Shown: positions 59,748-62,533 of the stretch, piece after piece
How the letters are laid out: each line of letters begins with the position of its first letter
Position numbering within the stretch: position 1 is the first letter of the stretch
Source of the DNA: Bacteroidia bacterium
GTDB taxonomy: Bacteria; Bacteroidota; Bacteroidia; UKL13-3
DNA: 64,000 nucleotides
Direction: 5' to 3'
Assembly (NCBI GenBank): GCA_025454975.1
Contig: JALONK010000026.1
Location: forward strand, 1 to 64,000
The notes under the pieces: generated by a model
Database searches by the model: none
What the model was told of the DNA's origin: nothing
Seen by the model: only the letters and a program-made list of their open reading frames with translations
Position numbers and translations under genes: made by a program

Positions 59748-60956
59748 CTAATAATTTGCAAATGGATCATTTACAAACTGCTTTTTCTCATAAAGGTACA
59801 TTTCTGATTCGTCCAGTAAACAAGCATTCAAATCGGCATGAAGTTTATCTGTGTTAATGTGCTGACCAATAAAAACTAATTCATTCAACCGATCACCCCA
59901 AGTTTTATCCCATTTATTTAAAATGTATGCTTTATTTTCAATAAAGGATGGTAAACTATTTCTTTCAATTTCAGGAATAGAACACCACCAAACGCCCGCT
60001 TTTTCTATTCGTGCCGAACCTCCGGCTTGTGAAAAGTTAAAAGCATCGTCAGGCCTTGATGCTATCCAAAAAAGTCCTTTCGCTCTAATTATTGTAGATG
60101 GATATACCTCTTGTAAAAAATGCCATAAACGTTGAGGGTGAAATGGTCGGTGACTCCTATAAACAGTTGAGCCTATACCATATTCATCAGTTTCAGGCAC
60201 ATGCACTTCAGCTTCTAATTCTTTTTGCCAGCCCGCAGAAGTTTCGGCGGTATTAAAATCAAACAAGCGCGTATGTAAAAGTTCCTGTAAATCAACTTTC
60301 GAAAAAGAAGTAGTTATAAATTTTGCTCCGGGATTTAAGCGTTTAATAGCTGAAGTTAACAATCCTAAAGTACCTTTATCAACTAAATCAGCTTTGTTTA
60401 AGATTATAATATTGGCGAACTCAATTTGATCGGTTATTAAGTTCACAATGGTACGTTCATCACCTTCCATATTGGTAAGTTCACGGTCAATTAAGCGCTC
60501 ATTTGTACCAAAATCTTTCATGAAATTATAAGCATCAACAACTGTTACCATTGCATCAATATAACTGAACGCCGATAAATCAATTCCCGTGGTTTCATCA
60601 ACATAACTAAAAGTTTGTGCTACCGGAATTGGTTCGCTGATCCCGGTACTTTCAATAATCAAATAATCAAACCTTCCTTCTAAGGCTAACTTTTTAACCT
60701 CATCTATCAAATCACCACGTAAGGTACAGCAAATACAACCATTGCTCATTTCCACCAGTTTTTCTTCTGTACGAGATAAGGTATTTCCTTGTTTAATCAA
60801 TCCTGCATCAATATTTACCTCGCTCATATCATTTACTATAACTGCAACCTTTAAGCCTTGTTTGTTGTGCAAAATATGATTTAACAAGGTTGTTTTACCT
60901 GCCCCAAGAAAACCACTTAATACGGTTACCGGTAATTTTTTTGCTGATGCATTCAT
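59748..60956 (-). CDS. COG0523 (CobW/ZigA-type) GTPase, zinc metallochaperone-like
   Basis: A 402-residue G3E GTPase. Walker A is GFLGAGKTT, followed by [15 protein letters not shown]. The metal site [12 protein letters not shown] is a CxCC motif. [15 protein letters not shown] and NKADLVD complete the nucleotide site. A C-terminal CobW_C domain ends with ...[10 protein letters not shown]. The [10 protein letters not shown] wording places it in the ZigA/YciC-like subgroup, which delivers zinc under zinc shortage. A TTG at 60966-60968 would add four residues; ATG 60954-60956 is preferred. Directly upstream lies a 41-base perfect palindrome, the probable operator of a Fur-family repressor. Confidence 0.88.
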
Positions 60957-60991
60957 AAGTTTCTTCAATTAAAATAGAATGCAATGATAAA

Positions 60992-61032
60992 TAATATTTT
61001 TAAATGCAACAATGTTGCATTTAAAAATATTA
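60992..61032. promoter_or_regulatory. 41-base perfect palindrome, likely Fur-family (Zur-like) operator
   Basis: The arm TAATATTTTTAAATGCAAC (60992-61010) is mirrored exactly by GTTGCATTTAAAAATATTA (61014-61032) around AAT. The core TGCAAC-AAT-GTTGCA has the size and symmetry of a Fur-family operator. It starts 36 bases before the ATG of the zinc-chaperone-like gene and would cover its promoter. It lies also just after the GH13 gene, but has no T-run and does not look like a terminator. Confidence 0.65.
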
Positions 61033-61063: not shown

Positions 61064-62533
61064 TTATGGAAGTTTGAAGATAATGGTTGAGTTTGGCTGC
61101 ATTTCTATTTTACGCTCAACACTAACACCTTGTTCAATCCAAACATTACCTATGCTAGGTTTGCTGATGGTAATATTTTTAGCAGATACATTGTGTATAA
61201 CTAACACTTTATTGATTCCATCATGTAGCTCATACGCAATTACAGAAGGAGTTTGAGTAATCAGTTGTGTAGGCAATAAATTACCTTTACTAAATACAGG
61301 ATTCGCATTACGAATAGCAATCCACCTTTTATAATGATAATATATAGCATTAGAATCAGTTAGTTGGGCAGCTAAAGGCTTAACCGTATTTAGATTACTG
61401 TACCTTGGAATTTGCCAAGTGGTATTCGAAACATCTTTGGTATTCCATAAAAATGGTTCGCGTCGGTATTCGTCAGGAAACTTACCTAACATACCAATTT
61501 CTTCCCCATAATACATGAAAGATAAACCAGGGAGGGTCATTAGCAAGGTGAAGGCCTGTTTGCTTTTAGCTTCATCGCCTCCAAATATACTGTGATAGCG
61601 GTCTTGATCATGATTTGTGATAAATATTGCATCCAAAAAATCAGGTTTATAAGTTTTATACAATGCATGAATGGCATATAAACGTTCGGTAAATCCTTTT
61701 CCGGTACCTGATGAAATATGATGAGTAATAGCCTTTGATAAATCAAAATTAAATGAGGCATCTAAACTACTTTTTAAATAAGTGGCCACAATGCTGTCTT
61801 TATTCCAAACTTCACCAATTAATAACACATCTGGCTTTACTGCACGCATGGCTGTTCTAAACTCACTCCACCATTCATTATTTTTTATTACATCAGAGGC
61901 ATCATACACGTGTTGTGCAGCATCTAACCTAAATCCGTCAATATTGGCTTCCTTCAACCAAAATGCTCCGGCATCTTTAATGGCATCTCGCACCGGCTGA
62001 TAATCAAAATTTAAATCAGGCATTCGTTCCCAAAAAAATGCATAATATTTTTGTTGTGGATTTCTTGGGTTACTATACCACTCTTTGCGACCAATTGTAT
62101 CAAAATTCCACACATAAAAAGGTGTGTAAGGCGAATTAACTTGTGTTGATGCCTTAAACCACGGGTGTTCACTGCTGGTATGATTTACCACAAAATCCAT
62201 TATAACTTTTATTTGTTTTTGATGAGCTTCCTGCACCAATAATTTAAATTCCTCAAGCGTACCATACTCAGGATCTATGGCCTTGTAATCCGTTACATCA
62301 TATTTGTGATAGGTAGGACTTGGATGTATTGGTGTAAGCCAAATACCTTTAATGCCTAATTGTTGTAAATAGGTTAACTTTTGCCGAATCCCATTAATAT
62401 CACCGACTCCGTCGCCATTACCATCGGCAAAGGAGCGAACAAAAATTTGATAAAATACCGGAAGTGATTGATTTTGCTGGGCATTCAACCCCATTACACT
62501 TATTAAAAAACATATAAAAAGATATTTTTTCAT
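61064..62533 (-). CDS. Exported GH13 alpha-amylase family enzyme
   Basis: A 489-residue exported glycoside hydrolase. A signal peptide (MKKYLFICFLISVMGLNA) precedes a full (beta/alpha)8 GH13 domain. Conserved regions are DFVVNHTSSEHPW (region I), GFRLDAAQHV (II, with the catalytic Asp), LLIGEVW (III, acid Glu) and FITNHDQDR (IV). A C-terminal beta domain ends the protein. QIFVRSFADGNGDGVGD with its calcium-type DxDGxGD loop is typical of oligosaccharide-active enzymes (oligo-glucosidase or cyclomaltodextrinase types). The exact substrate is unknown. It is divergent from a sugar transporter, which points to use of the released sugar. Confidence 0.9.
   Translation of the reverse strand: MKKYLFICFLISVMGLNAQQNQSLPVFYQIFVRSFADGNGDGVGDINGIRQKLTYLQQLGIKGIWLTPIHPSPTYHKYDVTDYKAIDPEYGTLEEFKLLVQEAHQKQIKVIMDFVVNHTSSEHPWFKASTQVNSPYTPFYVWNFDTIGRKEWYSNPRNPQQKYYAFFWERMPDLNFDYQPVRDAIKDAGAFWLKEANIDGFRLDAAQHVYDASDVIKNNEWWSEFRTAMRAVKPDVLLIGEVWNKDSIVATYLKSSLDASFNFDLSKAITHHISSGTGKGFTERLYAIHALYKTYKPDFLDAIFITNHDQDRYHSIFGGDEAKSKQAFTLLMTLPGLSFMYYGEEIGMLGKFPDEYRREPFLWNTKDVSNTTWQIPRYSNLNTVKPLAAQLTDSNAIYYHYKRWIAIRNANPVFSKGNLLPTQLITQTPSVIAYELHDGINKVLVIHNVSAKNITISKPSIGNVWIEQGVSVERKIEMQPNSTIIFKLP

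Follow-up and report, generated by a model that had tools for sequence, protein, structure and literature searches.

It has been reported that COG0523 genes and HisI paralogues are linked to zinc depletion or to the zinc repressor Zur (PMC2770081, available sections), and COG0523 genes preceded by a Zur box are a known type of arrangement. Zur boxes of the 7-1-7 type, one over the -35 element and one over the -10 element, are described for B. subtilis yciC and S. coelicolor znuA (PMC6103462, available sections). A third system for comparison is the bidirectional intrinsic terminator. The locus considered here, in a window of 64,000 nucleotides (the whole stretch of DNA that was analysed), resembles all three in part. 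As in the COG0523 systems of PMC2770081, a box of Fur-family type precedes a COG0523 gene, and other zinc-linked genes, e.g. HisI paralogues, are among the targets; the box letters here are TGCAACNNNGTTGCA, and the training sets named in the available sections of that work are from Firmicutes and Proteobacteria. As at yciC and znuA, the box would lie over promoter elements, and several Bacteroidota promoters carry two boxes 36-40 bases apart, but the Bacteroidota box is fused with TAnnTTTG and the window shows the upstream box only. Like bidirectional terminators, the locus has a long perfect hairpin soon past a stop codon, and the related sites L107 and L158 add an A-tract and a T-tract; unlike them, it carries a predicted operator at the apex and a tail that enters the next predicted promoter, and the stem in the window is AT-rich with a weak T-run.

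No mention of Bacteroid- or Flavobacteri- was found in the available sections of PMC2770081, and no Bacteroidota Zur box is described in those of PMC2770081, PMC6103462, PMC9723704, PMC6613475, PMC4219657, PMC9976891 and PMC8794818. In the literature searched, RegPrecise and most subscription journals being outside its scope, no description was found of the letters of the Bacteroidota box, of its fusion with TAnnTTTG or of long arms that recur around it. For this large phylum the result provides a zinc-repressor box and a promoter layout that can be tested. It also points to operators repeatedly fused with hairpins, which would illustrate how genes under tight repression are protected from the genes next to them.

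The palindrome and its neighbouring genes

The palindrome occupies positions 60992-61032, with no strand assigned, and reads TAATATTTTTAAATGCAAC-AAT-GTTGCATTTAAAAATATTA. Its 20-base arms pair exactly around one unpaired centre base, and as a hairpin it has 19 pairs and a 3-base loop; the earlier note's account of a 41-base palindrome with exact 20-base arms was confirmed by direct reading and by a script scan. In that scan it was the only perfect inverted repeat of the window with arms of at least 12 bases and a loop of at most 8. In 20 first-order Markov sequences as long as the window the longest arms were 9-12 bases, compared with 20 in the palindrome, and a chance origin was therefore rejected. 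The calculated RNA fold of the palindrome with its flanks was -22.6 kcal/mol (z -6.1), and that of the DNA strand -15.7 kcal/mol (z -7.0). Arms that are AT-rich and 20 bases long could be extruded under supercoiling, and the strand fold energy is consistent with an extruded cruciform, as the earlier note had suggested. However, no finding requires extrusion, and long arms are absent at most box sites, so that we regard a cruciform as extremely improbable.

An alpha-amylase gene (61064-62533) has its stop codon on one side of the palindrome, and a ZigA-like COG0523 GTPase gene (59748-60956), the predicted target, has its start on the other. Both genes are on the minus strand and read leftward, and RNA reading through from the alpha-amylase gene would carry the hairpin, which stands 31 bases past the alpha-amylase stop in that gene's reading direction. 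The likely start codon of the ZigA-like gene, chosen by eye, is the ATG at 60956, which is 35 bases from the palindrome. The encoded protein has Pfam cobW and CobW_C domains, and its best NCBIfam model is ZigA (NF038288); the score of 535 bits is below the cut-off of 600, and the gene was therefore named ZigA-like. Of the description as a zinc-chaperone-like GTPase of COG0523, the family assignment was upheld by the two domains and by ZigA as the best model, while a match at the ZigA cut-off was missed.

The core box, its targets and its candidate regulator

The 15-base core TGCAACATTGTTGCA (61005-61019, letters on the minus strand) is predicted to be a Zur operator, on the grounds of its recurrence, its targets and its co-occurrence with a Zur-like gene. 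Its minus-strand centre, TGCAACA-T-TGTTGCA, is a 7-1-7 inverted repeat of the Fur-family-box type. Six exact cores TGCAACNNNGTTGCA were found in the genome of the window, compared with 0.57 expected under an order-3 model for which 150 kb of the same genome served as training sequence. One is in the palindrome, two are inside genes, and the others are at C57:13542, C80:5298 and C82:7016. The core at C57:13542 stands 4 bases before an open frame for a small outer-membrane barrel protein, and a core with one mismatch at C57:16510 stands directly before a TonB-dependent receptor gene; both belong to the same cluster, which includes a Fur-family (Zur-like) gene. The core at C80:5298 follows a Fur-purA pair. 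That at C82:7016 is 192 bases before cinA, for which no zinc link was seen; beyond cinA in this locus (L033:2326-3223) lies a gene for a histone-like protein rich in lysine and alanine, which matches PF07382 below the cut-off. When up to two mismatches were allowed, the box was not enriched in the window (4 found, 4.26 expected), and no match to znuA was found in the genome.

The box also recurs before orthologues. With at most one mismatch and within 300 bases upstream, it was present at 32 of 80 loci with a ZigA-like gene, compared with 18 of 1746 control pieces; these loci, nearly all from Bacteroidota by record title, came from a larger scan, and the controls were pieces of the same loci. 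The remaining 48 orthologues had no box under these limits, and many of them may be in operons. In the three nearest family genomes having full-length copies, none of six ZigA genes had a box within 220 bases. In one family member of 3.2 Mb (G022:C1; L019, L029, L031) there are three ZigA-like genes that are almost the same. The 220 bases upstream are identical for two of these genes, and the box precedes none of the three. Among the 80 loci, a homologue of the regulator encoded at C57 occurred in 22 and TonB receptor homologues in 8.

In a wider scan, 64 of 295 genomes of the class contained the exact box, the positions 15 bases outward on either side having to be A or T. A regulon sample of 46 loci, 20 of them picked by hand, contained 51 sites (10 inside genes), from which 61 genes read away. 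Pfam assigned these 61 target genes to FUR (8), TonB plug (6), MerC (5), pyridine-nucleotide oxidoreductase (4), cobW (3), DUF4625 (3) and phosphoribosyl-AMP cyclohydrolase, i.e. HisI (2). The earlier note had proposed a Fur-family operator of a zinc regulon and had asked for the core before other zinc-related promoters. Both the 7-1-7 repeat and the recurrence at zinc-linked genes speak for such an operator at the level of sequence: the core was found again at the TonB-receptor cluster beside the Zur-like gene and at the ZigA-like orthologues, and in other genomes at Fur-family, CobW, MerC, TonB-receptor and HisI genes. When the presence of the regulator was defined as a match to a profile of 21 Zur-like proteins (110 of the 295 genomes), box and regulator occurred together in 47 genomes, the box alone in 17, the regulator alone in 63 and neither in 168. 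The regulator was thus present in 47 of 64 genomes with the box and 63 of 231 without it, an odds ratio of 7.4 with relatedness uncorrected. A phylum survey requiring A or T next to the core found it in 8 of 395 genomes.

The C57 protein reaches the Pfam FUR model with 42.5 bits (cut-off 23.1). It was named Zur-like because the NCBIfam search gave no curated Zur or Fur model at its cut-off. E. coli Zur was the best PDB match of the Zur-like profile. Zinc-ligand positions were taken from the available sections of PMC4219657, according to which Zur proteins conserve Cys88 better than any other residue of the B site. In the Zur-like alignment both CxxC pairs, which would hold the structural zinc, are invariant, and by eye 18 of 21 rows have Cys at the Cys88 place, a position of the sensory site; the C57 protein has both pairs and this Cys. 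The protein is likely Zur, as judged from its sequence.

Another Fur-family protein, such as Fur, PerR or a manganese or haem sensor, might instead read the box, in which case the regulon would not be one of zinc. Several observations point that way: the C57 protein is below the cut-off of all curated models for Zur or Fur, its sequence taken singly matched Fur structures slightly better than Zur, the TonB receptor best matches haem-type models (all below cut-off), and 17 of 64 box genomes have no Zur-like gene at the threshold used, at least 7 of these having the site inside a gene. They are set against the profile match to E. coli Zur, the conserved Cys at the Cys88 place, and targets that include COG0523 and HisI, kinds known to be linked to Zur. 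We therefore consider a regulator other than Zur improbable. In the C57 cluster itself (L032:4910-8911), the TonB receptor gene, two lipoprotein genes and a gene for a barrel protein with His-rich loops adjoin the Zur-like gene; the receptor matches both haem-type and ZnuD models below their cut-offs, the haem-type ones best.

Position of the box relative to promoter elements

Bacteroidota promoters have a TTG as their -33 element. The -7 element of the main sigma factor of the phylum has been reported as TAnnTTTG (PMC9723704, available sections). On the minus strand of the window, TATCATTG at 60982-60989, with one mismatch to this consensus, is the predicted -7 element, and the TTG of the right half-site of the core, at 61007-61009 and 17 bases before it, is the predicted -33 element; an alternative TTG at 61010-61012 would have a spacing of 20.

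Short-armed and long-armed sites differ in this respect. Of 100 short-armed sites, 49 have TAnnTTTG overlapping the box at a constant offset of -6, with at most 7 at any other offset. Among long-armed sites, it is found at offset 29-33 in 7 of 11 (four exact, three with one mismatch), and 16-21 bases ahead of it stands a TTG that belongs to the core; TAnnTTTG is absent from this range in L068, L158, L100 and L095. L213, a later find, has it at offset 33 by eye. The motif positions suggest that the box overlies the promoter: at many sites it would cover the -7 element, and here probably the -33 element. By eye, two boxes 36-40 bases apart share one intergenic space in L050, L084, L094, L161, L177, L180, L194 and L195, a spacing that fits one box over -33 and one over -7. 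That the core is a Zur operator over the promoter of the ZigA-like gene is, in our judgement, quite likely.

Long arms and a candidate terminator-like hairpin

The arms outside the core are a separate question. Among 33 sites upstream of ZigA-like genes, flank symmetry is nearly all or nothing: at least 13 flank pairs follow in a row in the window, L068, L104 and L107, the next-longest run is 9, and the rest are at most 4. Four of these sites have at least 12 of 16 flank positions paired, compared with a mean of 0.18 and a maximum of 2 in 2000 trials with reshuffled flanks. Flank runs of at least 8 occurred in 12 of 112 distinct sites, and L183/L213, the one new long-armed site of the phylum survey, brought the long-armed sites to 13. 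The arm letters differ at every one of them, and a repeated element or mobile piece was rejected on this ground.

The earlier note had taken the symmetry as a hint of two overlapping dimers, which would here be Zur dimers on an operator as long as the whole palindrome. E. coli Zur does bind znuABC as two dimers (PMC4219657, available sections), but the arms hold no second copy of a half-site and vary between sites, and most sites consist of the 15-base core alone. This reading was rejected as very improbable.

At 11 of the 13 long-armed sites the flanking genes are co-directional, L157 being scored from one readable neighbour; of the short-armed sites that are not inside genes, 33 of 88 are placed in this way (P 0.002). 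The exceptions are L160, where the genes diverge, and L213, where the upstream gene is divergent and 1.6 kb away; no tRNA was found in this long gap. In 909 kb of loci, 15 perfect hairpins with arms of at least 14 bases lack a box. Nine of them lie between convergent genes, four between co-directional genes, none between divergent genes, one in a half-known setting and one in coding sequence, and these are the places of terminators. Judged by eye, L107 and L158 have the A-tract and T-tract look of bidirectional terminators, and L104 and L159 have no T-run. With three G-C pairs, the window stem is at the minimum of a simple terminator scan, which found 8 sites against 6.0 expected by chance. 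A second copy of the target, from which covariation of the arms could be read, was found neither in the G479 family (80 genomes) nor in the G139 family (5 genomes).

From these data we infer the following mechanism. With zinc, the Zur-like protein encoded on contig C57 would bind TGCAACATTGTTGCA and cover the -33 element, and the ZigA-like gene would be off; when zinc is absent, the gene would be transcribed. The arms outside the 15-base core would be a second feature overlaid on the operator. When RNA of the alpha-amylase gene reads on past its stop, they would form the 19-pair hairpin in it, halting or hindering this RNA ahead of the zinc gene, so that the repressor would retain sole control of it. 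The RNA of the ZigA-like gene itself would be free of the hairpin because its predicted start point (near 60977) is past it. That the arms are an insulating terminator-like hairpin, as their context statistics and form suggest, has in our view slightly less than an even chance; the whole reading, in which the core is a Zur operator and the arms such an insulator, we hold to be somewhat favoured.

The arms could also be functionless. The core would still be a Zur operator, and a single template switch of the polymerase at the inverted repeat would have copied one flank onto the other. Perfect stems can arise in one such event (PMC8794818, available sections), and the all-or-nothing, perfect symmetry, with arms differing between lineages, is as template switching would make it. 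The excess of co-directional settings and the likeness of L107 and L158 to terminators, however, are not predicted by it, and we consider functionless arms unlikely. As an origin of the arms, template switching can be compatible with a useful hairpin or with none.

The insulator reading can be extended to a composite evolved repeatedly in Bacteroidota, in which a perfect terminator-like hairpin has a repressor operator as its apex and continues from its 3' arm directly into the -7 element. One stretch of 40-60 bases would then end the upstream transcript, supply the -33 element and act as the zinc switch. Template switching would have produced the arms, and they would have been retained because repression would fail if RNA read through. 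This extension is speculative, and we think it rather improbable. At L100:2064-2155, in Spirosomataceae, two boxes precede a ZigA-like gene; the first stands in a long perfect hairpin, and a plain box over the -7 element follows.
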